A stretch of DNA of 64,000 nucleotides from Mesostigma viride (lineage: Eukaryota > Streptophyta > Mesostigmatophyceae > Mesostigmatales > Mesostigmataceae), in NCBI GenBank assembly GCA_009746045.1, contig RPFO01000090.1:1760689-1824688 (forward strand), written 5' to 3'. The notes beneath the pieces were generated by a model that ran no database searches, was not told where the DNA came from, and worked only from the letters and a program-made list of their open reading frames with translations. This document shows, piece by piece, positions 2,460 through 46,479 of the stretch. A program made the position numbers and the translations under genes. The stretch's first letter is position 1. Each line of letters begins with the position of its first letter.

Positions 2460-2640
2460 AGGCTTCTCAAGGGTTATGTGCTACAGATACTCCCAACGGA
2501 GTTATGTTCCTAAATGAATTAATCCATTCCATCCCATGTTCCCCTCCCACTGAGGACTTATGCTCACGTGACGCAGTCACGTGTCTATTAATTAATTAAG
2601 TAATTTTCTAGTCTAGAAAGTTTAATTATCTAGTCTAGAA
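2460..2640 (+). repeat. Two adjacent LINE 3' ends (LINE-B then LINE-A type)
   Basis: 2470-2515 carries the ATGTGCTAC...ACTCCCAACGGAGT hairpin that ends LINE-B copies elsewhere (16693-16722, 56211-56240). About 2515-2583 matches the last part of the LINE-A 3' UTR (compare 14470-14520 reversed). It ends in the palindrome CACGTGAC-GCA-GTCACGTG at 2565-2583 and a short TTAATTAA tail. Both are severely 5'-truncated. After the tail comes a small duplication of a TCTAGTCTAGAAA motif (2608-2641). Confidence 0.7.
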
Positions 2641-2985
2641 AATCCCAACTACACTACTCAGCAAAACGTACGCCCCTTCCGCTTGGGGGGAGGGGCCGGC
2701 TTGCCCACACCGGGGCTGGCGTGTGAGCCAGGACAATCTTCTGCCACCTCTTCTTGTTCTGCATAGCAGTCCAACGAAGAGAGCCTGAGGGATCGAGTGA
2801 ATGCGGTATTCAAAAGTGAGCTGGGACCACTAGGTCGGCCAGCAACATCTGGATGTAGTTCATGGCATGCAGGTTTACCCAGCTTTCTAATGTTCTTGGG
2901 GCCAGCTAGCCAGGTCAGGATGTGCTGCCCTGGTTGGCCAAGCCGCTGGGGGCTGGCCAGACCAATAAATTAATTAAATGATTAG
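2641..2985. other. No recognised feature
   Basis: Roughly 345 bases of moderately GC-rich sequence. I see no long open frame, no known repeat end and no RNA gene. It lies between LINE fragments and is probably old transposon-derived DNA. Confidence 0.4.
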
Positions 2986-3192
2986 GAACATAACTCCGTC
3001 GACCGGGAGTATATGCAGCACATATCCCTGAGACGGGGCATATGGCCTATAATACACTCGGGGCTACTTCCTGCAGGTGGGGGAATGTAAACTGCCACCT
3101 ATACTCTGGGTGCATGCACAAAGGGCACCTGCACCACCGTTATCTATCAGAGCCCAATGATCCCAAAGGGGGCCCGTCATGGGGTGGAAGAT
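2986..3192 (-). mobile_element. LINE-B 3' fragment, left part (split by LINE-A insertion)
   Basis: On the minus strand this is the 3' end of a LINE-B copy: the hairpin near 2988-3015 followed (reading upward) by sequence also found at 16720-16880 and, inverted, at 56050-56200. It stops at 3192 after GGGGTGGAAGAT. The same twelve bases recur at 13317-13328, where the LINE-B sequence resumes. LINE-A therefore interrupted this copy and left a 12-bp target-site duplication. Confidence 0.75.
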
Positions 3193-3774
3193 TAATTAAT
3201 TAATTAACTAATAGACACGTGACTGCGTCACGTGAGCATAAGTCCTCAGTGGGAGCCGCGAGGAACATGGCGGGGATCTGGAATGGATGGCCGGTGTAAG
3301 CTATGTAGGTCCTAGTTACAGGGACTTGTGGGCACTGCGGCCCGAATCTCTATCTATGAATGCCATACGCGGTCACACGTGGAGCCCCCACAGACTTGGG
3401 GGTGGTCTCCTTCATCACTACTTGCCATCTATCCTTGCGTACCATCTGCCTCCATATTACAGATAAACCATGCAGGAGGCTGCCCGGGTGTGAGCCCGTC
3501 ACATCTAGCTAGTGTACTGTAGCACATGTCCATGCCGAGTCTATCACGAAAAGTCCACGGGTGGCGGCCCTGCCGCGCGCGGCCTGGGGCACGCCAGGTG
3601 AGGACACATCGCCCAGGCTGGGCGGGCTTGGTGCAAGCTATTCTATCTGAATCTGTGTCTATACCTGATCTGTGCGGGCCATGCAGGTGCGTGCCCGGCT
3701 AGGCCCAGGCGCCTACAGGTGCCTAATAATGTGGGAAACATAGGGCAAATCAGCGTACAAACCCTCATAACTAA

Positions 3775-4942
3775 CTAATGTGCAAACCAAAGGGGCCGCA
3801 TCGATGTTAAGGGCGCCTTGCGCAGCATCTTGGTGACGTTGCCGTTGAGTCGTTGCTCCAGCTCCTGCGTCAGTGTCCAGATCTCGGCGCCGTAAGTCAG
3901 GATCTTCAGAAGTGACGACGCCACCTTGAAGAGGTCATGCTTGACCATCCGGGGTAGGGCGGGGTTGCATGCTCGACCACCAGCGGCGGTGGTCATGGAG
4001 GAGTTGCGCCCACGCCAATGATGCCGATCCGTGTGGTCAGGTCGTCCGATCGCAGGATCGGGAAGCCAACTGCCAAGCAGCTTGAAGCGGCCTGAAGTAG
4101 GGTAGTTAATCTCGGTGTTGTCTAAGAGGCGGAGTGCATGTGGGTCGGGGCGCTGCCATGCCGAGGGCCAGGGCCTACGTTTTGGGGCTGATTTCTACGG
4201 ACCAACCGCCCGCGAGCCGCGAGCGCCATGCAGGCAGTCCAGCCAAAGTTGGGCAGACTCCGGCTAATCTCGATGAGCGTGATGTCGTCGGCATAAATGA
4301 GGTCAGCTAGCAAATTCTGCTTTTTAGTCGGCCCCCCTTCCCCAGGCTCGTTCGTGATCGCTACTAGGCCAGGGGCACGGCCTGCAATGCTAGCAAAGCG
4401 AGCACGTGCCTGGCCGGCGTGCATAACATAATCCACCACAATAATAAACACTGAGGTACGGCGACAGGACGCAACCCTGCCAGACGCCGGACTGTGCACA
4501 GTGGGCATCATGGCGGGGTAACTGAGCCGTGTTGAGTGCGCACCGAAGTGGTCGACCCCTCATCATACAGCGTGCGGATGACGGTTATCAGGGGAGTGGG
4601 GACCCGAGCGCGCGAGCAAGTACAGCCCATAGAGCGTCCCAGAGGACAGAATCAAAAGCCTTGATGCTGAAGTCGACGAAGATCAGGATGACGGGAAACT
4701 CACCAGGTTGCAGGAGAGCGATTTCCTCGAATCTTGAGGCGACGCGCGACAGAGATGGCCATGATGGTGCTGCGCCCAGGACGAAAGCCCATTTGACTTT
4801 CCCCTAGGTAACGATTGAGAGCAGAACGAAGGCGGTTGAGGATCATGCGCATGAACAACTTGGGACCGTGCGGCGCTCTGGATGCAGACTCCTTGGTAGT
4901 TGCAGCGTGGTCGTCAGGGGAACCTTGGTTTTTGTACAACAT
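3775..4942 (-). pseudogene. LINE-A reverse transcriptase, C-terminal part
   Basis: Frame fragments on the minus strand together give the middle and end of a LINE reverse transcriptase. 4700-4942 has the GFRPGRST block, 4270-4300 has the catalytic block LIYADDITLI, and 3830-3960 has the LLKILTYGAEIWTL segment typical of LINE proteins after the polymerase core. They lie in different frames, so at least two frameshifts separate them. The two aspartates of the YADD box are intact. Enzymes of this group copy their own RNA into the nicked target. The N-terminal half is found at 12541-13210 beyond the inserted YR element. Confidence 0.8.
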
Positions 4943-5575
4943 AATAAGTAGAGCACATCGGGAAGTGGCCCTCAACTGGCCATCCTTACCCATGGGAACA
5001 CTTTATGTCCAAAAAGGCTAGCCTTACCCCCAAACAGGCAACACACAGGGAGGGCGGGTGGGAAAACAAAAGAGACCGCCATGAGCTAGGTGAGCAAGCT
5101 TTTATCGTGTTTCAAGGCCAACGGCTCTCTACCAACGGCCAGATCCGGCAACGGCCTCTAAACAGTTTTAGCCGTCAAGTTTTACTTCAGATATTGCTTG
5201 TTGCAAACCCGTCCGCAATCACAGATCTGCTAGAAGAACCTAGACGCAGAAATCCGTCGTCAAGGTACTCAGCACACCGTCAAGGTATGGGCCGCAACAA
5301 TTAGGCCATATCATCCGTAATACTCGTACACTAGAAGCCTAATCAACCTTATTACGATCACATCACCCAGCTCTATTTCACCTAGCATCAGCGGCTCCCC
5401 TTCCGTATCACTATAAAGAAACTATGTTCAGAGAACCCCGATTCTATTAACCGTGGAACTCCAGGGTAACCAGACTCTTTATTAAAACAATAAGTAGAGC
5501 ACATCGGGAAGTGGCCCTCAACTGGCCATCCTTACCCATGGGAACACTTTATGTCCAAAAAGGCTAGCCTTACCC
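4943..5575 (-). repeat. 3' split direct repeats B1-A2-B2 of the YR retrotransposon
   Basis: B2 is 4943-5029, A2 is 5063-5441 and B1 is 5489-5575. B1 equals B2 over 87 bases. A2 equals A1 (12162-12540) over 379 bases, with one difference noticed (codon-like GAA versus GGA near 5232/12331). A 47-bp spacer lies between A2 and B1 and a 33-bp spacer between A2 and B2. The open frames here only mirror the terminal repeat and are not genes. Confidence 0.88.
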
Positions 5576-5651
5576 TTACATCCCTCCCTGGCGACCCAAG
5601 CCAGGGGCAAAACAAAAACCGGTGGACGCATAAGACAAGAATGAAGGGAAC

Positions 5652-7913
5652 TTAAGGGGTCCGGACACACCGGAATTATTTCGCGCCAAAAAAATCGCGC
5701 CGGTACCCGGCACGTGAAATTGTGGTGCACGATGCGCGTAACCCTTGCGCCAAGTTGGCCATGGCGACGTGCGTTAGGTAATAAATGCAGTAATATGGCA
5801 ATAAGACCGCAGAAAATTATGCAGATGCGTCAAATCAAAGTTTCATCATGATCTTGCGTAGCCGAAGATGCATTATTGACGAGATCGATGCCATTTTTCA
5901 TCCGCGTTTGCGAGGGGGTCTGGCCCGGAAATCTTGCCGCAACGAATAAGCAGCAATACATGCCTACAGCGATAATTACAAAGGTTCTTAGTCCCTAGCG
6001 ATGCAGAAAGCAACGTTCATTAACGGGGAGATTGAAAATGTTAAAGAACCTTTTATTTTATTACTTTTCCTCGTCATTTTCGGAAAGAAAACGCCAGGTC
6101 CTGCTTTATGCGCTGTCAACCCGTCCATGGGTGGCTGGCATTTCTTGCGCGCCTTGTCAGGAAAGATAGCATGCCATTGTACGTCTATTATCCAGTGGTT
6201 ACCCCCGAAGTCTATTGCGTTTAGAAATCCCTTTATTCTAAGCTTTCAGCACGGTTTCCTGGAAGGGTGCGTTGTTTTGTTCGCCGCTTGCTGCATGCAC
6301 GTCTCTAGTTTTCCGGCAGCTTTCAACCGATTCGCTTACGTTATGCGTGGCAAGCTCTGAAATCCTGTCTAGGATTGGGTAATATCAAGGTAAGCTGCTA
6401 CGTTAATGTAATGATATATGGAAGGATTTGGATGGCAGAGTGCTTATATTGCATATTCAACACGTACCCCGGCATGCCTCGAGGGCGGCATGCAACAAGC
6501 TGGCGAGCATATGAACCGTGCGTCTCAACGTGCTGGGAAACAAGGTGGCTATACTTCTCTTGCTGGCCATGCTTTGTATATGTGTAAGCTATGCTTACGT
6601 GTGTGTCCTCTTTAGATTTGTGGATCACAGCCACTATGCTTCACAATCAATGTGCTCTCAAGGATGCTAGCCATGCTTATGAGGATGGCTGCAAGCCATT
6701 TCTCTTATGGCTTTGCTGTATTTTGTGTTTGCGCTTACAGTTCTGTTTTGTTGGTTGGTTTTTGAACGGGGTGATGTGAACCTGCAGGGTTAGAACATTG
6801 TGTTATTATTGCTGGTTGATTGAGGCATCATCCTCTACTCTAAGTCAGCATAGCACGTGTAGATGAGCATGCTGTTTATGCACCTTATTGTTGAGCATGG
6901 TTTACAACCATGGTGAGGTGTGGGGTGTGGCTAGCATGTACGAGTCACCCATCTAATCCCACATGTTTCTGTTGCTATTGAACGTTGCTTGGGCCTCTAA
7001 ACATTTCTGTTATTACCAATGAAGATTGCCAACTATGCTACCATAGTGTGGTGCTGCATGCTATGAATGACCTCTCTAGTACTCAAGGCTCATGCTCAGC
7101 TTGATCCTGCATTTGGTGGCTGTTTGTATAACTCAATTGGCAGCCGTCTATGTTAGGATTCTGATGATTTGTGGTGGGCAGGTGATGAAAAGGGTTATGT
7201 TTGAGCTCATGCCAGTCTATACTAGGGTTGAGGGGTGGCAGTTGAGGACACTAGTTTATGCCATCAGTCTAGCTCAGAATGACCTGAATTTTGATTCCAA
7301 GATAGTTTGCATGATAAATAACTTGCTGGCACCTTGTTTGCCCCACTTGGTGGTGGGCAAGGTTGTGATTGGTGCAGCCATTTGGAATAAAACCGTATTT
7401 TCGTGCATTTTTTTTTTTCATACAAAAGAACATAACTGTTCACATACGTGGTCAGAATGAGCTGAAAATTGGTCCCATTGATATTCCCACCCTGTGGAAG
7501 TTATTTTTGACTCCCTGGGCCCAACCCATGCGTATTTGATTTGATATTTTTTTTTTAGTCACAAAAAAGACGTATTTTTCGGTAAACTGCATAAGTATGC
7601 CCAGACGTGCGATTTTGGTGCTGCAAATTAGCTCCATTCTTTGGTCTGGGTGGGGATTTGACAAAAATGTGGTGTTTGGTCCACAAGTGTGGGGGGGTTG
7701 TCCTAGGCAATCCGTGCTGTTAGGGGGTGTGCGCGCTAAAAATAGCTCCGTGCACATGTATGGTGATGGACCTTGAACTCAAAAAGTAGCCAGATGCATG
7801 CCCAAGGGTCATATTTATGGCCCCCCATCATAATTTGCATTGCCAGAATGGGTATTGAGTGCAAAACATGTGTATTCAATTTGGGGGGGTTCAGGTGTGT
7901 CCGGACCCCTTAA
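5652..7913. mobile_element. TTAA-flanked DNA transposon, copy 1 (non-autonomous)
   Basis: The left end reads TTAAGGGGTCCGGACACACC and the right end is its exact reverse complement, giving 16-bp inverted repeats flanked by TTAA. Just inside the left end lies a subterminal block with TTTCGCGCC and GCGCCGGTACC, shared with two related elements (20671-22563 and 58304-60581). TTAA target duplication is the hallmark of piggyBac-type transposons, but no transposase is recognisable. The 119-aa frame at 6001-6360 has no family I know. It is inserted exactly at the stop codon of the YR recombinase. Confidence 0.8.
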
Positions 7914-10900
7914 GAGGAAGGCAGAGAAAAGACGCTCCGCCAAATGCGCGGGGGGCAGGCGGCGATAGCCCGAACCAGGGCGTCAGGAAGGGTGAGGGCC
8001 AAGCTCCGGTGCAATCCCACATAGTGGGCGACAGTTTTGCTGCTGCGCCAGCGACCCCGATGCTGAATATCAGCCATGCTGCGCTGCCGCAAAAAATCAT
8101 AGGTAGCCCCCCCATGCCGCAGCCCGTGAATGGTAAACACCGTGTCGACCCCCAAAGCTTGCGTGGCCTGATGCCAAACCCGGCTGAACTGGGCATAATC
8201 GTAAGGGAACACCCGCTCCCAGGCCGCCTTGCCACGCATACAAGCCCGCAAGAGGGTCTCAGTCATGACATCCTCGATCACCACAGACTGCACCTCCCCC
8301 TTAGCCGTCTTAGCTGACATCAACAACAAGGCGCCCCGCTGCGAACCCCGCAACCGAACATCAGGCTGCAAGCGCACATGGCCGACCAACAGGTTGAGCG
8401 CCTCCGATACCCGCAGGTATTGTTGGAAAATAACGATGACCATCATAGCCGCACGAGGCTGCCGCTGGAGCACCATAGTACAAGCAAGCGCAAACGCAGC
8501 CTCCCATGGAATGGGGGGGGGGCACGAGGGGGTGCCAACGTGCGCCAGCCAGCCAAAACACTTCGTGCCAAGGCCCAATCCCGCACCTCCCGGGGAAGTA
8601 CAAATTCAGGCCCATAAGCGCATTGACACACAACTGGCGGCTGTAACACCGTGAGTGCGCCCAAGCGACATACTCGCAATAGTATTCCTCTATCGTCAAG
8701 CCGCGCAACAAGCTGCCAACCCGACCCCGCCGGCTCGCCCACCATGCGAAAAAGGACCTAAGACCCCGATGGTAAACCATCAAAGTAGCCGGCTTCACCT
8801 TGCCCTCAAGAAGGGTCAAGTAGCTAGCGCCAAGCCGAGGCCCGGGATTGGGATGAACACCCTCGCGAGTCAAATCGCGGACCCACCCGGCCACCGAGGC
8901 AGCCATGGAAAGCCCCCGCGAAGGCCCATCCGCAGGCTGAAGCTCACTTGGCGTCCAGACCCATTGTGAGCGGCTGCCGGTGACCAACGTAAGAGCGCAC
9001 AACCGGCGGCATTGCTTGTTTAACCGGTAAGAAGAGGAACGCCCTTTAGCCAAGCAGCCCAAAGCGGCAGTGGAGTCCACTAACCTCACCACCCGCTTAC
9101 CCCATGTTCCGAGGTTCCGGGCCGAGCGCTCCACCCCCTTCACAGCGGCCCGCACTTCCTTCTCGTTGATGTGCATGGTCGAATCGCGCCAGCGACTCTT
9201 GATCCCGACGCGCCATCGCCCGTGGATGATGGCTTTTTCCGCGGCCTTGGTCAAGGGTCTAGGCCCGGCATACATGGCCTCACCTGGGGTGAGGAGGGTT
9301 GGGTAACCCCGCACCTCCCGGGCCCGAGCTAATTCCGTCACCTCAGCTGGGGCCATCTCAGCGTAGACAACCCCCTGCCCAAAACTAGACGCATCCGAGG
9401 CCACCACCACCGGAGCCAGGGCAGCCCCCCGGTCCACACGGAGCATGGGGGCCAACGCCATGGCACACTCGAGCTCATCGCGCACACCTTGCCACAAAGG
9501 TCGCGTTCGCTGGCCCCACCCCTTGAGGTTGATGAACTTAAAACTCTGCTGCCATATGGACAAGCAAGTGCGGCTGAGCATCTGCAGCCACACCCACCGG
9601 CCCACGACGGCCGCCAGCGCCTCAGCGGTAGCGCGTCCCCTCTCGAGGAGTACACGAGTGTGCGCAACCACAAGGGTGAGCTGCTTAGCTGTCGGCTCCA
9701 ACACCCCATCCCGCCGGTGAACAACACCCAGAGCTTCTAGCTCGTCCTCCCCCTCCGGGCTAGCCATGATCGTCTTGTCCTTGGAGGGCACAAGGTTGTT
9801 AGGCGCGTACCCGTCTTCAATAGCACTCGCGATTAAGCGATTCACCGCCTCGCACGTGCGCCCATTGCTGACCACCAGGTCATCAATAGTGATGGATACC
9901 ATAGGGGCAGGGGGGTCCTCAAGGTCGATTTGCATCTCCCTCGTGCTCTCCTCCTTGTACTCGATGGCTAGGGCGGTTGGGTTACCCCATGCATTCCGAA
10001 GCACGGTCAGCTCCCCTACACTTGTGAGGCGGTTCACCTGCCGTCTAGGATCCAAAGCGCCCGTGGCATAGAGGACCATCTCATGGATGGCTTCCCCTAG
10101 CGCTACAGCGTGGGAGTGCCCCATGGCCAGCACTTTCAGCACTGGCCACACCCTCCTCCGCCGCCCCGGCAGCCCGACATCGGTGGACCACACATCAGGT
10201 AGCCCTTGATAATCCCACCACCACTCCGGCACTTGGATGGTATAGTAATACGAGACCAGATCGCTCTTGGCCGTGTAGCACCGACCCTTGATATAGACCT
10301 CCGAGTATATGCCCAGGTGGGGTAACACCGTCTTAGGGGGGTCCACCCACAGTGCGTTCCCCAACTTCTTATTCACAATGAGCCTTAACTCCCCCACTCC
10401 TTTGGCCACCCCAAAACATCCGTCTACCCACTTTGGCCGCGTCTCTCGGAACTCCACCATCCCCACGTCCGCTGCCCTCCCCATCAACTTGCCCCACTCC
10501 GCCATGGTGCACCCTCGGCTGGGGGCAGGTACATTCCAATACCTCGCACTGGCAGCCACCTCCGGCTTGATGCAGTTGGCTTCGCTCGCGTACACCTCTC
10601 GCCAACTAGGTCGTAGCGCCAGCAAATCCAGCAGCTTCGCCTTTCCTGCCACCTCGCGCTTCGGCAGACTCACCCGCTCCGCCACAAGTTGTTCATACTT
10701 ATTACATTTCCCATAGATTAGATCACTTCCTTCTGCGGGGCCTGTCGCAACGCCGGTTACGCGGCGACTGTACCACTCGCAGTGCTTCTTGACCCTTTTC
10801 AGGGCCTCCGCCGTTCCTCTGGAGCACGCGCCTCCAGATTTAGGCGGAGGGTCTGCCCCCCCGTGCCATAGCCAATTCAACCACGTAATCACCTTGTGTT

Positions 10901-10985
10901 GTAGAGTGAAGGTCCGGCGGCGGCGAGTTGCACGCTGGCGTCTGCGTGCTGACCTCACTCTCCCCCACGTAGTGCTTAGAGGCAT
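7910..10985 (-). CDS. YR retrotransposon pol: reverse transcriptase, RNase H, tyrosine recombinase (one frameshift)
   Basis: The start chosen is the ATG at 10985-10983, 48 bases after the gag-like ORF stop; the open frame continues upstream but there only shadows gag. The reverse transcriptase carries a SITIDDLVVS catalytic box (IDD instead of YxDD). RNase H follows with VASDAS, HINEKE, RLVDSTAALG and PADGPSRG, supplying the acidic residues. Next comes EGVHPNPGP, a 2A-like motif at 8838-8864, and then the recombinase: LRVSEAL (first Arg), HGLRHGG (HxxR), HRGRW and VAHYV (tyrosine nucleophile). A run of ten G on the plus strand (8513-8522) shifts the frame between the start of the recombinase and its catalytic core. 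Without it, pol would be about 1025 aa. The stop is the TAA at 7912-7910, inside a TTAA duplication. Confidence 0.87.
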
Positions 10986-11032
10986 TGTAGGAAGAGGCAG
11001 TGGGAAGGGGGAGCGGTTTACCCTTTCGGTGT

Positions 11033-12181
11033 TTACTTGGTTTGCTGGGCCTTGCCCAGCTTCTCCATCATCGTGGCGCTTTGCAGGGCCATCTTCATGG
11101 CCGGGTTGCTCACCAAGGAGGCATCTTCCTTGAGAGCAAGGAGGTGGCCAGCCACCTTCCACCCTCCTGACCCCTGGCTCTCCACTAGGAGCATGGCTGC
11201 CACCACCCTCATGAGATACTCTACCCCAGCCAACTCCCCGGCTGCCGGCCCCAACTCCTTGAAGAGTGTGTCCATGGCCAGGGCGATGTTCATGACCACC
11301 TTCCTGCTTTCCTGGTTCCTCCACCCCCCTTGGCGAGTAGCCATGATCCAACTCTTTATCCCCCCTCCATTGTCGTTGGCATCCTCGAGCACCTCGGGGA
11401 GCACTCTCTCTTGCACCCTCCAATTCACCACTTGTGCTCGAGTGGGCAGCGTCACCCCTTTGGTCTTTTTCGGCTTCCTGGAAGCCCCATCTGCCCCGGC
11501 CAGCGCATCCTTCAATTTCGTCAGGAAATCCTCTTCCTCGGACTCCTCCTCCTCCTCCTCTTCTTTGCCCGCCTGCCCCTGCTTGCCAATAATAGCCGCC
11601 AGCTCCAAGAGCTGCTCCCTCACATCCCCCGCGGCCTTTCCCTTGCTCGGGGCTGGGCTTCCGACTTTTTTCGTCCCCTTTTTCGCCCCTTTCGTGGGCC
11701 GGCGTGGTGGCTGCATCTCCTCTTCGTCCGAGTCCGCCAAGTCCCGGGCGCTTTGGAGGGCTGCCACTAGCGCTTCGTTTGGGTCCGCTGCTGCCAGAAT
11801 TTCAGGCCCGTCCACGTGGTCGACCAGCAGTCCAACGACGGACTCCAGCTGGGCCGCAGACCACCGGCTGACAGTAGTTACCCAGTCGGTCCCGAGGACC
11901 GCCTCAAAGGCAGCGCACACTTCAGGCAGGCCCGAGCAAGTGGAGAGCTCCTGATGGAGCCTTTTCTTCTGCGTCGGCCAGCCTAGTCGGCCCTTTCCCG
12001 TCTGTTTAGTAGCTGTCGGCACCTCGGGATTAGCTTTCGGTAATTGCTTCCCAGCACCTGTCGAACCTGGCTTCCGCCCGGGCTTCGGCATCCCAGCCGC
12101 TTTGCAGAAAGGAATTCGGGCGTCAGCTACGCTGCCCCTGACCCCTGTCGCCGCCTTCGTTAAAACAAAAGAGACCGCCAT
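11033..12181 (-). CDS. Gag-like ORF1 of the YR retrotransposon
   Basis: Intact 382-aa frame. Its ATG (12181-12179) lies inside terminal repeat A1, and its stop is just before pol. The protein begins with a basic Pro/Lys-rich stretch, has an acidic run of Glu/Asp near residues 205-220 (EEEEEEESEEED), and ends in a helical region rich in Ala, Leu and Met. I see no zinc knuckle. Position directly upstream of pol, its length and the Lys/Glu-rich composition fit the structural (gag-like) protein of YR retrotransposons. The assignment is by context, since no conserved gag motif is visible. Confidence 0.65.
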   Translation of the reverse strand: MAVSFVLTKAATGVRGSVADARIPFCKAAGMPKPGRKPGSTGAGKQLPKANPEVPTATKQTGKGRLGWPTQKKRLHQELSTCSGLPEVCAAFEAVLGTDWVTTVSRWSAAQLESVVGLLVDHVDGPEILAAADPNEALVAALQSARDLADSDEEEMQPPRRPTKGAKKGTKKVGSPAPSKGKAAGDVREQLLELAAIIGKQGQAGKEEEEEEESEEEDFLTKLKDALAGADGASRKPKKTKGVTLPTRAQVVNWRVQERVLPEVLEDANDNGGGIKSWIMATRQGGWRNQESRKVVMNIALAMDTLFKELGPAAGELAGVEYLMRVVAAMLLVESQGSGGWKVAGHLLALKEDASLVSNPAMKMALQSATMMEKLGKAQQTK

Positions 12182-12540
12182 GAGCTAGGTGAGCAAGCTT
12201 TTATCGTGTTTCAAGGCCAACGGCTCTCTACCAACGGCCAGATCCGGCAACGGCCTCTAAACAGTTTTAGCCGTCAAGTTTTACTTCAGATATTGCTTGT
12301 TGCAAACCCGTCCGCAATCACAGATCTGCTAGGAGAACCTAGACGCAGAAATCCGTCGTCAAGGTACTCAGCACACCGTCAAGGTATGGGCCGCAACAAT
12401 TAGGCCATATCATCCGTAATACTCGTACACTAGAAGCCTAATCAACCTTATTACGATCACATCACCCAGCTCTATTTCACCTAGCATCAGCGGCTCCCCT
12501 TCCGTATCACTATAAAGAAACTATGTTCAGAGAACCCCGA
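12162..12540 (-). repeat. 5' terminal repeat A1 of the YR retrotransposon
   Basis: This 379-bp block is repeated at 5063-5441 (A2). It forms the 5' end of the element on the minus strand and contains the gag start codon. Its outer edge at 12540 breaks a LINE-A reverse-transcriptase frame. Confidence 0.88.
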
Positions 12541-13210
12541 ACGTACGGTAGCTGTGCTGCCAGTGACTCAGGAATCGGCGGCACGTCAGCAGGATCCGGT
12601 TGCAGACGTCAAGCAGGAACCCCGTGAGCGCCGTCAGCTTAATCACCGGGCCGGCGGGGAGCTGGTCAGGCCCAACGGCGGCGTAGTAGCTGAGTTGCTT
12701 GGCGGCGGTGCTCAGCTCGAGCTCGGTGAACGGCGGTAGCTCGTTGGGGTCGCGGCCAGGGTTTCCGTCAGGGCCGGGTACGTGACTAGTCCTGCTCAGC
12801 GGCAGGCGGCGTGGGCGGCGCAGGGACGTCCGCAGGCGCCACTGGCCCACTGCCAGGCGCGCGGCCGCCAGAGGTCAGGGCCAAGCGGCGGAGGCGGCGG
12901 GGGGGCGCCGAGCAGCCGGGACTGGGAGGAATACCACTCCGGGCAAGCTGCTGCTGTGGTGAGCCAGAGATCGAGCGTCCGCGGCGCCGGCTGCGCGCCG
13001 CCGGCGGGCCGTTGGGCGTGACGCAGGCGGGTCCAGGCGTACTTGCCGTGCTGGTCCTGGAGGTGGGCCACTTCTTGTGGACATGGAGGTCCTCCTGCTC
13101 CCTGGTCGCCTCAGTGCCGGATGGCCGAGTGGTAATGGGCTTTGAGGCGGGCGTAGCGGGCGGGGACCGTCGCGGTTGTCGCGCAGGGCTTGCCGGGCCT
13201 AGCTGCATGG
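12541..13210 (-). pseudogene. LINE-A linker and start of reverse transcriptase
   Basis: On the minus strand about 13071-12950 encodes a linker with QHGKYAWTRLRHAQRP, matching KHDGKGAWFWYKRLGHP in LINE-A copy 3 (about 57790-57850). 12740-12541 encodes the RT entry region (PPFTELELSTAAKQLSYYAAVGPDQLPAG, given here only as its span 12700-12640; key residues GPDQLPAGP). The frame is cut at 12540 by the YR element and continues at 4942. Frames shift between the linker and the RT. No endonuclease catalytic motif was found, so the copy is 5'-truncated. Confidence 0.7.
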
Positions 13211-13316
13211 ATGACGGCGGGGAGCCGGTGCAGGCTCAGTGGTGAAGCGGGGCGGGCGGCGGGGGGGCAGCAGGGCCCCGGCCACGGGCAGATTGCCAGC
13301 GAGGTTAATTGCCAGC

Positions 13317-13715
13317 GGGGTGGAAGATCATCATGGCTATACCAAGGCTAGGGCATGGCTTCTCGTCAGAGAGTGACTCTCTGTATAGGCAGGGCTGAGC
13401 TAAATTCTTAATGCATCATCCACGGGGGTCCCATTATAGGCAGGGCGTGGCTTTCTCAATGGGTTAATGCATCGAATCCATGGCCTATGGTTATAGGGTT
13501 ATCGGGGCGCACATGCGCGGGGGCCGCGTACGTGGTAGGCTAAGCCCTTACTAATCTACACTACTGCTATATTCCCTAGCTAGACTGGGGGTGCCTCAGT
13601 GCCAGGGCTTGTGGTTGACGTGGATGACGCCCCCCCTCCAGTATACCGGTTTCCCCCCAGGCTCAGTGCGCTGTGCCGGAGCTGGAGGTAGGTCGGCCAT
13701 AGCGCTCGCGTCCCC
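13317..13715 (-). mobile_element. LINE-B fragment, right part, with end of ORF1
   Basis: Resumes the LINE-B sequence interrupted at 3192. 13317-13560 matches 16880-17090 (3' UTR). 13590-13715 matches 17160-17280, the C-terminal codons of the LINE ORF1 protein on the minus strand. The ORF1 part is frameshifted here. Confidence 0.7.
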
Positions 13716-13819
13716 GTATGTTGGCCAGACCAAGGGCGGTATCTACCTGACTGGTGCGAGCAAGATGTCCTACAAATGCTACCCTACGCTGCCTAATCTC
13801 GTCCGAAATGCGAGGCATT

Positions 13820-13970
13820 AATTACTAATTAATTACTAATTTAATTAAGTAAGTACTTGCGCCGGTGTCATGCGCAAAGGCATGCCACGAAGTACTATGC
13901 TAATCTCATTGAAAAAATAATTACATAAAAGTTTAAACAAATATCGTCTGCATCATTCCTCAACCCACTA
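13820..13970. repeat. Dispersed repeat with TTAATTAA-type tail
   Basis: The block running from AAGTACTTGCGC to TCGTCTGCATCAT recurs at 55615-55715 with high similarity, and a diverged part at 51365-51430. It abuts a TTAATTAA microsatellite at 13822-13850. It is probably another retrotransposon end, with no coding content. Confidence 0.65.
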
Positions 13971-14406
13971 GATGGGGATGTAATCCTCATCCGAGCTCAG
14001 TGTCCTCTACTGTAATGGCAGACGAGGTGGTTAAGTGTAGCGGCTTTCCTCGATCACTGAGGGCCAATAACCTCCCGACCTGCGGACTTCTACCCTGGCT
14101 AGCAACGGGCCCGCCGACGGGGCCCGTGGGGAGAAACAGGAGCATACCCCTCAGGAAGGTGCTTATATCGCAGATGGCAGCCCATTTCTCGACTTGTCAA
14201 TCATGCGGGCGCGGAGTACGGATAGTCCCAGAAGCCTTGCATCTTCAAGCAGTTGTGTCACATAGGTCCGGGTCGCGCCGCGCCGGTGCCGGGCGCGCGC
14301 AAGTTTGCCAGTGGATCGCGATGGGACAAGGGGACCCTGCCATAGGGGGACTACATCAGGTGTCTACCTGGTTGGCCCATCTTAAGCCCCCCGGCAGGGC
14401 CCACAT
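13971..14406. other. No recognised feature
   Basis: About 430 bases with a 137-aa open frame (14000-14413) that resembles no family I know. It lies between repeats and is probably transposon-derived. Confidence 0.4.
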
Positions 14407-16674
14407 TAATTAATTCATTAATTAATTAATTAATTAATTAATTAATAGACACGTGACTGCGTCACGTGAGCATAAGAAGTCCTCAGTGGGAGGGGAACAT
14501 GGGATGGAATTGATGGTGTAAGCTAATAATCTAGGTCCTAGTTACAGGGTTGCGGGCACCACGGCCCGAATCGCTATGAATGCCATACGCGGTCACACGC
14601 GAAGCCCCCGCAGACTTGACTTGGGGGTGGTCTCCTTCATCACTACTTGCCATCCATCCGTGCGTACCATCTGCCCTCCATTAATTAATTAATTAATTAA
14701 TTAATTAATTAATTAATAGACACGTGACTTGCGTCCATATTATAGACAAACCAGCTAGGAGGCTGCCCGGGTGTGAGCTCGTCACGTCTATAGTGTAGCA
14801 CATGTCCATGTCGAGTCTATTACGAAAAGTCCACGGGTCACTGGCAGCCCTGCCGCGCGCGGCCTCAGTGGGGCACGCCATGCAGGTGAGGACATATCGC
14901 CTAGGGGCTGGGCGGGCTTGGTGCCAGCTAGTCTATCTTATGTGTCTACCTGATCTGTGCGGGCCAGGTGCCCGGCTAGGCCCAGGCGCCTACAGGTGCC
15001 TAACTAGTAATGTGGGAAACATATAGGGCAAACAGCGTACAAATCCTCATTACTAACTAATGTGCAAACCAAAGGGGATGGCCTTGCGCAGCATCTTGGT
15101 GACGTCAGTTGCCGTCGAGTCGTTGCTCCAGCTCCTGCGTCAGTGTCCAGCCTGGTCTCGGCGCTGTAGGTCAGGATCGTCAGAACGACGACCTTGAATC
15201 TAGGTCACGCTTGACCATCCGGGGTAGCTAGGGCGGGGTTGCTCCACCATGCAGCGGCGGTGGCCGGTCAGGGAGTTGCGCCCACGCCATGCCGATCCGT
15301 GTTGTCCTGAAGGTCGTCCTCGCAGTCGGGAAGCCAACTGCTCGAGCAGCTTGATCGATGCGGCCTGAAGTAGGGTAGTTGACCTCGGTGTCGTCTAAGA
15401 GGCGGAGTGTGGGTGGGGGCCCTGCCATGCCGATCGAGGGCCAGGGCCCCCACCCTGATTCAGTGCGAGGCATACCCTGATTCAAAGACTCTAATGACCT
15501 ATGCTTGGAAAACCCTATATATGCGCTACATGATCTCCAAACGGAGTCATGCTATAATTTAATTTAATGTAATGTTATTTAGGAAAACCCTGCAATGATT
15601 CAGGACCTGTCGGAGCATCCCGTGTAAACCGTGCGCCGTCTAGCTTGGCGGCCAGCGTGTCCGTGAGTGTCTATGCCTCGATCGGTGCCATACGTAAGCA
15701 CAGTGAGGACGAGGACCTTGTTGAAGAGCATGCGCTTGCGGTGCTCGCCCAGGCCCTTGGAGCGCCAGTAGGTGTCGAGCGAGCGAAGCCTAGTTAGCCC
15801 AGGCCAGGCCGATGCGCCGGGATGTCCACATCGTCGGCGGTGTCGGGGAGCACATGTGCTCCCCAGCAGTTTGAAGCGATCACGGAACGGGACCTCCGTC
15901 CTGTCTAGCAGCCGTGGCAGCGGCGGGCGACTGGAAGCCCCAATCACCATCGCCTCAGTTTTGACACTAATCGGCCAACCCCACCGCCCGCGCCTCCAAG
16001 CCCAGACAGTCCAGCCAGGTCTGAATGACTGTGCTCGGGGCGCGCGATGAGGGTGGTGTCATCAGCATAGATCAGGTCGGACAGGCGGTAGCCAGGGCCA
16101 CTGCCGCAGTGTTTGGCTAGCTCGTTAAGGATGTCCAAGCCGGGCTCGAAGCCCCGCTTAAGAGCAGTAAAGCATCATGCACGCACATGGCCCGGCGCAC
16201 ATGTGACATGATCCACGACAATGATTAATGAACAGATATGGGGACAGGAAACAACCTTGTCACACCGGCCCCGTGGTGAACTGGGGAATGGTGGGGTGGT
16301 GCCTTCCCGCAGTCCGCACTACTGCCTGTGAGCCCTCATACAGTCGACGAATGGCAGCAATAAACGCTGGTGGTACCCGATCCAGAGCTAGGATGGCCCA
16401 ATTCATTAACCTTCGGGACCCCGGAGCTAGGATGGCCCAAAGAGCCTCCCAGAGGACCGACGGTGTCAAAAGCCTTGATATATAGTCAACAAAAATGAAG
16501 ACCAGCGGCAAACCGTCAGGGCAAAGGCGACGCACCTCCTCCATCAACCGGCGCGCGACAAATACAGCCATGACAGTGTTACGACCGGCCACGATGGAAA
16601 CCCATCTGAGACTCACCCAGGTGTGGGTCCAGCGCGGCGCGGAGTGAGCTGAGCAGCATCGACGTAACCATCGA
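14407..16674 (-). mobile_element. LINE-A copy 2, 3' half
   Basis: On the minus strand this has RT segments (16674-16260 with a GRNTVMAVFVARRL block, 16080-16040 with LIYADDTTLI, 15800-15650 with the post-RT region), then a 3' UTR matching copy 1 (3240-4140), a CACGTGAC-TGC-GTCACGTG hairpin at 14450-14468 and a TTAATTAA tail at 14407-14447. Frames are broken repeatedly. Its RT is cut at 16674 by an ORF1-only LINE whose tail lies at 16675-16690. A small additional LINE end is inserted in its 3' UTR at about 14682-14733. Confidence 0.8.
14682..14733 (-). mobile_element. Short LINE-A end (tail plus half hairpin) inside copy 2
   Basis: Comparison with copy 1 (around 3445-3460) shows that a block of TTAATTAA repeats followed by AATAGACACGTGACTTGCG interrupts the 3' UTR. 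TCCAT stands on both sides and may be a short target duplication. Only the tail and part of the hairpin are present. Confidence 0.6.
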
Positions 16675-17770
16675 ATTGAATTGAATTGTAACATAACTCC
16701 GTTGGGAGTATATGTAGCACATAGCCCAGAGAAGGGGCATATGGCCTATCATACTACATTCTAAGCTACTTCCTGCAAGGGTGGAAATGTAAACAACACT
16801 TGCTCTAGGTGCACTAGGGCACCTGCACCACCCAGAGCTTCAGGCAACACCCAGCTAAGGCGGGAGCCTGTCACAGGTGGGGAAGATCAGCACAGCTATA
16901 CAAGAGCTAGGGCATCAGGCTTCTCAGCAGGGAGTGACCCCCTGCATGGGCACTGCATAATTAAATAAAGATAGGCATCATCTGGAGGGTGGCTCATCAT
17001 AGGCACACATGTACATTCATGACTGAAAAGGCTAGGCCTCAGTTGGTATAGTGCCTGTAGTAGGCGGGCATGTACAAGGCCACTGTCTAACTATTCTACA
17101 CTACTGCTGCTGTATTCCCCTAGGCTGGGGCTGCTGGAGTCGCTGGGGCCGCGGTGGTCCCTGGAGGGGGTCGCGTGCCAGGGCTTGTGGCCGACGTAGA
17201 TGGCCGCCCCCTTCAAGTACACCGGCTGGCCCGCCTTGGTCTGCCGGAGCTGGAGGTAGGTCGGCCATAGCTCCCGTCGCCGTTGTTGCTGCGCCAGGGT
17301 CAAGTCGTCGTCCACGGTGAAGGGAGTGTTCTCGAGCCGCTTGCGGCGTCTGAGAAACGAAATCTTGTCCGCTGGGCTGTCAAAGATGAGAAGAAGCGGA
17401 GGCGCCCCTGCCTTACCCCGCGCGCGGGGGAGGCGGTGGGCGGTCAGCTTAATCTCACCAAGGAGGCCCATGCGTGCAAGGATTTTGCTCTCAAACGCAC
17501 GTGCAAGCTTCTCGGAATTCTCACCTTCCACCATGTCGAAGTTCTTGAGTATGGCGTTGAGGCTGCGCTTGGCGAGCTCGGCCTCCTCGCGGAGGTCAAG
17601 CGTCTGCCGTTGGAGCTGGGCTGCGACGGCGGAGGTGGTCGGAGGTGGTATGTTGCTTAAGCATGTCCGCCCAGGTCGTGATGGGAGGAGCATCGCCGGC
17701 CAGGCCAGCCGGGGCTGGCTTGGCGGCAATGTCCTTCACTGCCTGGACGTAACCATGCATCTGGCTAACC
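16675..17770 (-). mobile_element. LINE-B copy with ORF1 but no ORF2
   Basis: The minus-strand order is ORF1 (about 17760-17091), a 370-base 3' UTR, the ACTCCCAACGGAGT hairpin (16693-16722) and a short AATTC-type tail (16675-16690). No reverse transcriptase lies between ORF1 and the 3' end. It sits inside the RT of LINE-A copy 2. Confidence 0.7.
17091..17729 (-). CDS. LINE ORF1 protein (L1 ORF1p-like, RNA-binding)
   Basis: A 212-aa frame resembling the L1-type ORF1 protein, which coats the retrotransposon RNA. The visible pattern is a heptad-rich helix (LREEAELAKRSLNAILKNFD), an RNA-recognition-like segment (PPLLLIFDSPADKISFLRRR), then a C-terminal domain with FTVDDDLTLAQQQRRRELWP, like the D-LT-Q-R-R signature of ORF1p C-terminal domains. 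A diverged copy lies at 40172-40913 and a fragment at 13590-13715. The true N-terminus is probably upstream in another frame (residues TTWADMLKQ near 17660-17690), so a one-base shift near 17650 breaks it. Assignment is by motif pattern. Confidence 0.7.
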   Translation of the reverse strand: MPPSQPRLAWPAMLLPSRPGRTCLSNIPPPTTSAVAAQLQRQTLDLREEAELAKRSLNAILKNFDMVEGENSEKLARAFESKILARMGLLGEIKLTAHRLPRARGKAGAPPLLLIFDSPADKISFLRRRKRLENTPFTVDDDLTLAQQQRRRELWPTYLQLRQTKAGQPVYLKGAAIYVGHKPWHATPSRDHRGPSDSSSPSLGEYSSSSVE

Positions 17771-41712: not shown

Positions 41713-44700
41713 CTAGCTGTCCAACAGAGACAGCCCGATCCGGCTGCGCGCGACATCCACACTCACCACCTTTACCCGCACGCTCTGTCCTGCGCACACC
41801 ACCTCATGGGGGTCTACGGGCTTCCCCCGACTTCCCCCCCGACCATTGCCCCCCTCTCCTTCCCTGCTCCTGCCCACCCCGACATAATCTTGCCCCCCAC
41901 CCCCCCCATCTCGGACACGTGGACCAGCCCGTCCTGCCCCACGCCCACGTCGACAAACGCTCCGAACGTGACCACGTTGCGCACTGTTCCCGCCAACTCC
42001 ATGCCCACCCGTAGGTCACCCATGTTCATGACATCTGAACGCAGCGCCGCGGGCGCAGACGACTCCCGCACGTCCCTCCCAGGGGCCGCCAGAGCCTCGA
42101 TCACGTCGGCCAGCGTCTGCTCGCCCACGCCAAACTCGGCCGCAAGTGAGGACAGCTGGGGCCGGAGAGACGCCACCTTGGGAGCAGCCGCCTTGAGGTC
42201 CTCCAAGGACAGGATTCTAGAAACCAGGCCTACCCCTGCCGCCTTCCCTTTTGTCTCCTTCCCTTTGGCCACTTTCCCTGCTTTCCCCGCTTTGCCTGCC
42301 TTCCCCTTTTGCGCTCCCATGTCAGTCGTTCCAACCGCCGTGCCTTTCAGTCGAGACACTCCCATGACCTCGGTATCATGTGCAATCCCGGGGATATTGG
42401 CCTCATCATCATCCACCCCCGCCCCGGCCCCGGCCCCGCACGTCAAGCCAGTGTCCCCACTGCCCATCGAACCCCCAACAGACAGCGCGCGGGCGAGAAG
42501 CTTGCGGGCGACCCCGTAGCTCTCCGGGTGGATGGGCGTCGCGTCCAACGGGTCGTCGCCACCTGTCACGCGAAGGAACCCCGCGCACTGCTCGAACCGC
42601 TTCTTGCCGATGCCTTTCACCTCCAGCAGCTGCTCGATGGAGCGGAAACCGTGGTTGCCGCTGCCACCAACGCTTCTACCACTGCTGCTGCCGTCATATG
42701 TGCTGCCGGCGCAATGAGTGCTACCAGTGCTTCCCATGATTCCACCCAACGGGGCGTCGGCGTCCACCCAACAGCCCTTTCTCTCCCCCATCACATCGCC
42801 CTTTCCCTCCCCTTGCCCCCCAACCCTGCGCTTCCTGGCCCCTTTTTTCTCAACCCCTCTCTCCCCCTCACCAGCCTCTTCCTCCCCTACCCCATCGCGA
42901 TGCCCAGAAATGCCGTCCCGGTGCCTCACGATCGCCTCTGCTAGCGCCGCGTTCAGCCCCGCCACGCGCCGCAGCAACGCCGCCGACGCCGTGTTGACCG
43001 ACACGCCCACCTCGCTGACCGCAGACTCCACCGCATCGTCCAGCGCCTCCCGTAGCGCCTTGCTGCTCATGTCGTGCTGGTACAGCCCAACGCCCAGGTG
43101 CATAGGGTCCACTTTCACTAATTCTGACATCGGGTCCTGCCGCCGCCGCGCGATGCACACCGCGCCCCGCAGCGATACGTCCAGGTGGGGCAGCTCGGCG
43201 CGCGCGAGCGGGCTCGCCGAGTACACGCTGGCGCCTGCCTCGCTCACGATGCTCCAGGTGACCCTGGCAGGGTGACGGGCGCCGGCGCCCTCGCCACAGT
43301 ACATGCGAGCGCCCTCGCGCTGGCCTTTCCGGTCGGCGCCGTCATTGACGTCGCCACCGCCCAACAATGCCATCCCGCAGACCTCCGCCGAGGGCTCGGT
43401 GACGGCCAGGTCCAGACGCCCAGTGGGGGACGAGGTTTTCCTGGTCGAGGGGAGCGCCGGCGGTGATGCCAGCGGGAGGCCGGTGGCCGACGCTGGCAGC
43501 GAACGGCCAGCTGCGGCAACCTCTGCCCTCCCCATCCCGATCGACGGTAAAGGTCCCCTGGACGATGGCAGTGGTCGCCCGGTAACGGATGCTAGAGGTG
43601 GAAGCGAGCGCAGCGCGTCGGCGATAAACAGCTCCGCCTCCCGAGACGCGACGCCGTTCCCTATCGCAACATGGCCCACCCCATACTCCCCCACAATCCT
43701 CCTCACCGCCTCCCTGGCCGCATCGACCTGTTCCTTACCCGCGGGGGGCGTCGCGTACACCGTGTCTGCGTGCAGTACCGCGCCCGTGGGCCCCACCACC
43801 GCCAGCTTGCACCCTGTGCGGTACGCGGGGTCGACGCCGAGAACAGTGGCGGCCGGCAGAAGCGGGGGCTGGAGGAGGAGCGAGCGGACATTGGCCGCGA
43901 ACGTCTTGATGGCTCTCTCCTCGGCGGCTGCGGTCAGCTCGTGACGGATGTCGCGCTCGACGCGGGGACCCAGCAGCCGGTGGAGGCCGTCCTTGACCGC
44001 CCCCGCCACGAGCTGCTCGTACAGGCCATAGGAGCCGTTGAAGTCATGGGAACAGGATGACAGGGGCGGGGGAATGCAACTGGTGCGATGGCTGTAGACT
44101 GGAGGATGAGTCGGGTTTGAACTGGGCAGGGGAGCAGAGCCTTGGGGCGCTGCCAAAGAACGCGGGCGCATCGCCGAAAGCGCGGCCTGTTGCGCCGAAA
44201 GGGCGGCTCGCTGGGCGGGCAACGTGGCCGGCGGGAAGGAGGATGGAGCCGGGGCGATATGCGCACGGAGTGGGAGCGGGAGGAGCACCCCGCCACCCGG
44301 CGCAGGTACGGCCGCCTTGCCGTCGATGACAGGAATACCGCCGGGGGTGGTCGCGGGGATGCGGCCTACATGTTTGTTCAAGGGAGTAGTGTAGATGCAG
44401 GGAACATGTGCCGTGCTGTACGAGGAAGCGATACCGTGGGTCCCTGGGAATGCCGCCTTGCCATCGATGACAGGGATGTTCTCATCCCCCCCAGGCAAGC
44501 TAACGCTACGGGGGTTGGCATGCAATAGTGTGAGGTTATGGTTGGTGCCACGATCCGCGCTTGCTGCCGCATCCGTCACTGCCCCCCCCACGACCTCGCC
44601 CCAGGTCTCGCGCAGCAGCCGCGTCGCGAGCGGCGCCAGCTGGCCCACATCCCAATCGAGGGATATTTTCAGAACGCCCTCGCCCTCCCCCCGGTTGAGC

Positions 44701-45716
44701 GCGAGCACCTGGTGGGGGGCGAGGCGGGCGATACTGCTGGCGAACGCGGCGTAAAGAGCATACGTGTCTGCCCCGCCTTGACCGCTAGCGCCCGCTACGC
44801 CCATGGCGGCCAACTTTGCGCCGCCGCTGGTTTCATCGGATCCCGCCCCTTCCTCTTTCACGGATGAGAAACCATGCTTTCCCTTTCTCATGCCATCCGT
44901 GGCACCCCCTGCTTCCCCCCCGGTCGCTCCACTCCCTGTCTTGGCGGCTTTCAAGGACGATGGTTTCGAGGCCGACTTTGTGCTGGCAGACGCGCCGCAT
45001 CGTTTGGACGCGAGCGTGCCGCGCGCCCGCAGCAACTCCCGCGCCGCCTCGCGGATCCCTGGGTTCTCGGCCGCTCGCTCCGCCAGGATGTCGCACGCTC
45101 CCTGGAGGGCGTCCCTGGCGCACGCGAACGGTGTCCCCGGCCTCGCAAACGGCGCTGCCGCGTCGACGGGCGCAAGCTTGGGGTGGGTCGGGTGGAGGAG
45201 GAGGGACGCGAGCGCGGTCAGTCCGGCATCGCGTGCGGCACTGCCCCGAGTCGACCGTTTGGTCTTGTACGGGAGGTACAGATCGTCCACCTCTTGCGGC
45301 GTCTTGGCGTGCGCGAGCGCGGACGCTAGGTCCGGCCGCAGCTTGCCGAGCTTGCGGATGGCGTCGGCGGCCTTGATTTTCTTTTCCTGGAGCGCCGACA
45401 GGGACTTGAAGCGCGACCAGATCGTCCGAAGCTGCTCCTCGTCCAAGGAGCACGTGGCCTCCTTGCGGTAGCGCGCCACGAAGGGGATGGTGTTGTCGTT
45501 CTCGAGCAGGCTTATGGCGGCCGCGATCTGGGCTGGTTCGACGCCCGTCTCCGCCGCGATGGAGCCCAGCAGCTGGGACTGGCTGAGAGGAATGGTGGCA
45601 TTCGATGAATACAATTCGATTTCTTCCCATTTCGGTTTCTTCGGCATGTGCGGCTCCTCTGAGGGCAAGTCAGCCTTCTGCTTCCCCAAGACGGACCCCA
45701 GTTTGCGAGTTCCCAT
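41713..45716 (-). CDS. Tex/SRBD1-type S1 RNA-binding protein, two exons
   Basis: Homologue of bacterial Tex (YhgF) and eukaryotic SRBD1, nucleic-acid-binding proteins linked to transcription. Exon 1 is 41901-45716; exon 2, inferred, is 41713-41820 and completes the S1 domain (ending ARSRIGLSLLDS). In order: Tex N-terminal helices (about residues 40-140, NDNTIPFVARYRKEA), the YqgF/RNase H-like fold near residue 620 (VLGVDPAYRTGCKLAVV), helix-hairpin-helix regions near 850-900 (VDPMHLGVGLYQHDM) and 1040 (LLEVKGIGKKRFEQC), and S1 from about 1230 (GTVRNVVTFGAFVDVGVGQD). At 1307 aa it is far longer than E. coli Tex (about 770 aa). The excess is low-complexity insertions, one with a repeated PVIDGKAA motif (about 44290-44490) that might be an unrecognised in-frame intron. 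The first ATG of the frame is used; a 5' exon with a targeting peptide is possible. Confidence 0.88.
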
Positions 45717-46479
45717 CTCTGGGGAATTTACCTGACGAGGATTGATTTGGCAATCCGAGCTAGAGCGGGAGCCTATGGCTATAGGTAAATCGCGGGAACA
45801 CGTGTCCACGAGGTTAAGCAAGGTGGCTCATACAAACTGCATGCGCGGCAGCCACCCGTGCTTCCGCCCTTGATCACCGTCGTGCTCAGGTTCTGCCCGT
45901 AACACCATTCGCCCCTGCAGCATGGCAGCTTTCGATCACGCTGATTTCAAATGGTTGAATATTCAACGATACAAGGTTTAAAAACATGCAATACGATAAA
46001 TTTTCGTCTTGAAAACATCGCACACATGCGCGGCGGCTGAGGATGACCATATTTCCGCCATTGATGACGGGCCATGGCAGAAATGATTTGGCAGTGGCAT
46101 GCCAGCCATGACGTGATTGCCATATTTTCCCAACTGCGAGCTTTTCAAAAGAAACGGCCCCAGCGATTCAAGTATGTTAATTCGTGCATCCCAGTACAGG
46201 CTAACCGTAGCTTCAGCCGTCCGTCTGAGACAGCCTTTCTTTGCAGCTTCTCGAAAGCGCGCGGGGTACGGCAGCCGTACGGAAATGCTTCACGCGCCGC
46301 GCCTCCCCTGTCGCCCACTTTCCAGCACGGGGGCTCCGAAGAGCCGACGAAGGTCCGAGAGCCCCTGCCATCACCGGTGACGCTCCTTTCCCTTTTTGAG
46401 GCACTTGCAGCCCCTTCGCGTTTCTCACTTCGGATAACAAAACAGCTGCGGTACATTTTGCCGGACTGCTTATTTCACA
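45717..46479. promoter_or_regulatory. Divergent promoter region between Tex-like and CPN20 genes
   Basis: 763 bases separate the two start codons of this head-to-head pair. No convincing core-promoter element is visible. An open frame at 46074-46514 overlaps the CPN20 start in another frame and has no recognised domain. Confidence 0.5.

Follow-up and report, generated by a model that had tools for sequence, protein, structure and literature searches.

How many mobile elements lie inside one another at this locus of Mesostigma viride, and in what order did they arrive? We analyzed a stretch of 64,000 nucleotides (the window) in which a preliminary description had recognized a four-level nest. 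Its four levels are real. The outermost host, LINE-C, had been missed; LINE-B itself lies inside LINE-C, and the nest is therefore five levels deep. Comparison with other copies confirmed that the main nest consists of five mobile elements, each inside the next, with every border and the order backed by those copies. The insertion order LINE-C, LINE-B, LINE-A, YR, TTAA follows from the borders, the duplications and the uninterrupted copies of each host element, all of which can be shown. To a series of independent insertions as the explanation we assign a probability of about 95%.

We compared pieces of the window with other copies in the genome (440 Mb, 2243 contigs), searching with each piece apart. 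The copies compared are the most similar ones, and the copy numbers are lower bounds because the best 40 candidates were scored in each DNA search. A host was called continuous if the distance between its two pieces differed from the expected one by no more than 60 bases. The host-continuity counts take in loci holding both pieces; loci with one piece are uninformative.

Table. Features of the nest and of its surroundings in LINE-C (window positions)
Feature	Coordinates	Strand	Details
LINE-C, first piece (3' side)	2627..2965	-	Ends in duplication TGGCCAGACCAA, 2954-2965
LINE-B, first piece (TTAA-rich 3' tail)	2966..3192	-	Duplication GGGGTGGAAGAT at 3181-3192
LINE-A, first piece (3' side, TTAATTAA tail at 3193)	3193..4942	-	Continuity in other copies
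YR element, left part	4943..5651	-	A1 4943-5029, B1 5063-5441, spacer 5442-5488, A2 5489-5575
TTAA element with flanking TTAA	5652..7913	.	16-bp inverted repeat; longest reading 126 aa
YR element, right part	7914..12540	-	Ends with B2, 12162-12540
Tyrosine recombinase frame of YR element	7910..8605	-	PF00589, E 6e-07; motifs
Long ORF, 1146 aa	8361..11801	-	RT and RNase H motifs by eye
ORF of 383 aa in gag position	11033..12184	-	No family match under 0.001
LINE-A, second piece (5' side, truncated)	12541..13316	-	Homology 12544-13305
LINE-B, second piece (5'-truncated)	13317..13721	-	Starts with GGGGTGGAAGAT, 13317-13328
LINE-C, second piece	13722..13818	-	Starts with TGGCCAGACCAA, 13722-13733
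Sibling insert in LINE-C	13819..15463	-	Duplication TGCGAGGCAT, 13809-13818 and 15464-15473
LINE-C, third piece	15464..15516	-	Continuity in other copies
Short LINE 3'-end fragment in LINE-C	15517..15581	+	Exact 10-bp duplication GGAAAACCCT, 15507 and 15582
LINE-C, fourth piece	15582..16671	-	Homology to 16660

LINE-B interrupts LINE-C with borders at 2965/2966 and 13721/13722. LINE-C 2627-2965 runs on into 13722-13818 in 23 of the 24 loci with both pieces, and 22 of the 24 alignments overlap by 12 bases, the length of the exact duplication TGGCCAGACCAA, whose sole two places in the window are 2954 and 13722. In the one locus that fails, L041, a separate LINE-B occupies this site of LINE-C, with a different truncation point and a duplication of its own; that LINE-B is cut by a LINE-A of opposite orientation. 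Six further loci hold the left LINE-C piece only, and three of them (L040, L043, L045) bear LINE-B right there. Since in six other loci (L040-L045) LINE-B also comes after LINE-C at this point or close to it, part of the nest could have formed elsewhere and been copied or moved in as a block, so that not all steps were local; a shared origin is possible for L040, L043 and L045, which were seen on one side only. For this outer level, however, block copying is made unlikely by the different truncation point and separate duplication in L041 and by L174-L177, where other elements occupy the same LINE-C site. For the inner levels it is ruled out by the YR/TTAA left junction and the LINE-A/YR junction, each of which has one genome match at ≤ 3 mismatches. 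We regard a block origin as very improbable overall and prefer a series of independent insertions.

The border between LINE-B and LINE-A had been described as flanked by a repeat on both sides. This repeat is the 12-bp duplication GGGGTGGAAGAT at 3181 and 13317, its only two places within the 64-kb window. The preliminary description had named LINE-A or LINE-B copies that fail to continue over the junctions as the observation that would speak against it. We looked for such copies. Of 29 loci holding both LINE-B pieces, 28 (all but L098) are continuous over the LINE-A site, and LINE-A is continuous over the YR site in 30/30; three further loci hold the left LINE-B piece only. The left LINE-B piece was present in 19 of the 20 stretches taken for the continuity test (absent in L096). 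LINE-A is 5'-truncated in the window: compared against L022, 28 other loci all extend 0.2 to 1.3 kb further 5'. The 12-bp target duplications and 5' truncation are features of the LINE class. Within the window, pieces of both LINE-A and LINE-C gave RT-like matches, and the LINE-A reading of L022 contains RVT_1 (E 5.6e-25). Pfam matched no LINE endonuclease domain with E values allowed up to 5; by eye we read what we take to be an endonuclease-like motif in the LINE.

Two observations concern LINE-B elsewhere in the window. Another copy of the LINE-B family lies at 16672-17745, between two exact copies of the 11-bp duplication GACGTAACCAT at 16661 and 17746. Near the start of the window, two units of ~1481 bp stand in tandem (1-300 = 1482-1781, 320-978 = 1801-2459) and are not letter-identical throughout; this tandem unit (1-2459; L173 2827-3001) seems to break up a plus-strand copy of LINE-B that lies just upstream.

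The YR element (4943-12540) interrupts the LINE-A reading near residue 738, and a claim that the RT reading resumes across the gap is borne out: when the LINE-A protein of another copy is matched to the window, its residues 667-740 reach as far as 12539, and residues 739-1227 take up the match at 4945. Three loci in addition to the 30 continuous ones hold the left LINE-A piece only. The bases matching 4942 and 12544 have 2 bases between them in 28 of the 29 loci L010-L038; in the exception, L037, ~16 bases are missing at the site. A fixed TT target for YR was suggested by the first ten copies and rejected when 20 more showed different right flanks.

All borders claimed for the nest exist in the sequence, and one of them, the YR left border at 4943, is not the usual end of the family but lies 47 nt inside it. 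Among 30 other YR copies, 27 start with TTCTAT, 47 nt before AATAAG (L151 among them, with further internal loss), whereas the window and the remaining three (L077, L139, L152; L077 perhaps 4 nt earlier) start at AATAAG. One copy with the short left end (L152; L172) has the 7-bp sequence ATCGGTA on both flanks, which is unexpected because recombinase integration should not give a flank duplication. The short left end may be either an alternative terminus or the result of later loss. With such an atypical end, either the insertion itself or what followed it departed from the standard course.

The innermost insertion is resolved to the base. The YR pieces 4943-5650 and 7914-8700 were searched apart, and the 23 other copies common to both sets of best 40 candidates all bear out that the TTAA element cut the YR element: the gap between the pieces is 5 bases in 23/23, versus 2263 in the window. 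The uninterrupted site consists of one C and one TTAA. The element proper (5656-7909, 2254 bp) lies between TTAA at 5652-5655 and at 7910-7913 and has GGGGTCCGGACACACC as its 16-bp terminal inverted repeat. It went into the TAA that ends the recombinase frame, and this stop codon is preserved by the TTAA duplication.

All parts of the nest are high-copy repeats and the locus was read from the assembly alone, which would allow repeat copies to have been joined artificially. Against such an assembly artefact, exact target duplications sit at the predicted borders and the uninterrupted sites in other copies are base-precise, neither of which chance joins would give. We consider an artefact scarcely credible and retain the insertion series.

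The TTAA element matches the piggyBac superfamily in its TTAA target duplication, which is present on both sides in the window and in 8 of 12 other copies whose ends were read. Two of the 12 have TTAA on one side and two on neither; these 4/12 count against the insertion history proposed here. No transposase (DDE_Tnp_1_7) was found inside the element, whose longest stop-to-stop reading is 126 aa, so it is at most a non-autonomous piggyBac relative. At least 116 piggyBac transposase matches occur elsewhere in the genome. The TTAA duplication, the terminal inverted repeat and the lack of a long reading frame are shared with piggyBac-type non-autonomous elements; the superfamily differs in holding a transposase gene. 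Positions 1242-1258, in the tandem unit, hold CATGCTTTTAAAGGCTT, which looks like the empty target of a different TTAA-element copy (L121/L122).

We examined the build of the YR element. A1 equals A2 over all 87 bp, and B1 and B2 show 1 difference in 379. The repeat order is A-pol-B-A-B, or B2', ORFs, A2', B1', A1' on the coding strand. The PF00589 match of the recombinase is above the curated cut-off, and its frame differs from that of the long ORF. Where the two frames overlap, the 40 copies listed in the 7914-8700 search, one of them the window, show 100% identity; the frame change thus belongs to at least those copies. Within this overlap lies a run of 10 G (8513-8522), likewise identical in the 40 copies listed. 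This points to overlapping ORFs or a programmed frameshift, and away from damage to this one copy. The putative RT in the long ORF had no match in Pfam, NCBIfam, PADLOC or PDB scans, and a single-sequence fold of its region was unsuccessful, with a mean pLDDT of 33.3. No methyltransferase, a domain that marks PAT and is missing from Ngaro, was matched in the long ORF by Pfam at E up to 5, in a scan that also misses the RT. A 22-residue stretch ending in HPNPGP (8835-8900, minus strand; residues 968-989 of ORF 8361-11801) lies between the RNase H-like motifs and the recombinase and matches the viral polyprotein chain 9thi_A (E 8.6e-05). We take it to be what is called a 2A-like (StopGo) sequence, which could release the recombinase from a polyprotein.

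Judged from repeat order and recombinase, the YR element appears Ngaro-like. Passages of two papers give the Ngaro build as A-ORFs-B-A-B repeats (PMC8547959, PMC3783388), and the element shares this order and reads its recombinase in a frame different from that of the long ORF. It differs in that RT and RNase H were recognized by eye alone and in that this copy falls 47 nt short at its left end. Filing it as PAT (DIRS order) is a possible alternative: split direct repeats, which are also seen here, are a PAT feature in the passage cited, which sets the Ngaro build against PAT (PMC4157794). Among the paper titles listed by a literature search, none was on Ngaro in a green alga.

LINE-C carries at least two more inserts besides the main nest. 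Of the 19 loci that hold both flanking pieces, 18 have LINE-C continuous over 13819-15463 (L068 is the exception), and the duplication there is an exact one of 10 bp; over 15517-15581 it is continuous in 17/18 (all but L060). The larger insert contains a second LINE-A copy from about 14405, which is interrupted by a tiny LINE-A 3'-tail insert at 14682-14729.

Does LINE-C attract such insertions? We see an even chance that it has hot spots hit at the same nucleotide by several TTAATTAA-tailed families, in which case nesting would be preferential and the layering partly targeted rather than random. The candidate nucleotides are GGCCAGACC^AA at 2965 and GGCCAGGCC^AA at 15813. The pattern GGCCAGACCAATTAATTAA occurs at 13 genome places at ≤ 1 mismatch, and its reversed control at 0. 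In nine of these places, the window included, LINE-C is cut at the base matching 2965, and in three the cut falls on the counterpart of 15813; the one remaining place, L179, is unrelated. The nine inserts at 2965 comprise five of LINE-B, three of LINE-A type and one other TTAATTAA-tailed element, and LINE-C was seen to resume past the insert in 5/9 (window, L041, L175, L176, L177). When a gap of 0-30 bases was allowed, 13 rows collapsed to 11 places, two of which share an identical matched sequence, and the tail directly followed GGCCAGACCAA in four of them (probability 0.0003 under an even spread over 31 positions). We note that several of the hot-spot copies were found because the query spanned the junction, and that the pattern looks on one side only. 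Strict site specificity of LINE-B was rejected: LINE-C ends at that base in none of 20 stretches beside LINE-B copies, which were chosen by a match to 13329-13830 and of which 10 had a recognized 3'-end motif. A true hot spot would help to explain why LINEs here pile into each other, as is reported for algal Zepp.

Similarity to the other copies listed was 98-100% for the TTAA element, 99-100% for the YR part, 87-89% for LINE-A, 75-83% for LINE-B and 86-94% for the LINE-C pieces. LINE-C is closer to its own copies than LINE-B, and similarity alone therefore cannot order the outer levels. Because similarity mixes family age with insertion age, the order rests on nesting. The near-identity of the YR and TTAA elements to other copies suggests that these two families moved recently.

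The history that we propose is one of independent insertions in series, with an old LINE-C copy as the outermost host. LINE-C would have received a 5'-truncated LINE-B, and LINE-B a 5'-truncated LINE-A, each with a 12-bp duplication. LINE-A would then have received a YR retrotransposon of Ngaro-like build, and this element a non-coding TTAA transposon with its TTAA duplication. From the known biology of each class, the LINEs would have entered by target-primed insertion, the YR element by recombinase-mediated integration of a circular copy, and the TTAA element through a piggyBac-type transposase acting in trans.

Nested insertion is a known and ordinary process, and this nest is an ordinary case because such nests are common; the general lesson is modest. 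Its documentation is unusually complete, and five elements from three classes, all in one genome, can be placed in relative order here with base precision. Interruption of one element by another serves as evidence for nested transposons in the part of the literature cited here (PMC2517846), where it is treated by genome-wide statistics in mammals, whereas ours is one locus. Zepp inserts nest into existing Zepp copies, according to the passage cited (PMC8226300). The LINE clusters of Zepp (Coccomyxa) and ZeppL (Chlamydomonas) resemble this locus in having 5'-truncated LINEs inserted into each other. The window also holds an apparent gene, a Tex-like ORF of 1337 aa with Tex-family domains (41814-45827, minus strand). 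In contrast to Zepp and ZeppL, this locus combines several LINE families with elements of other classes, beside apparent genes.
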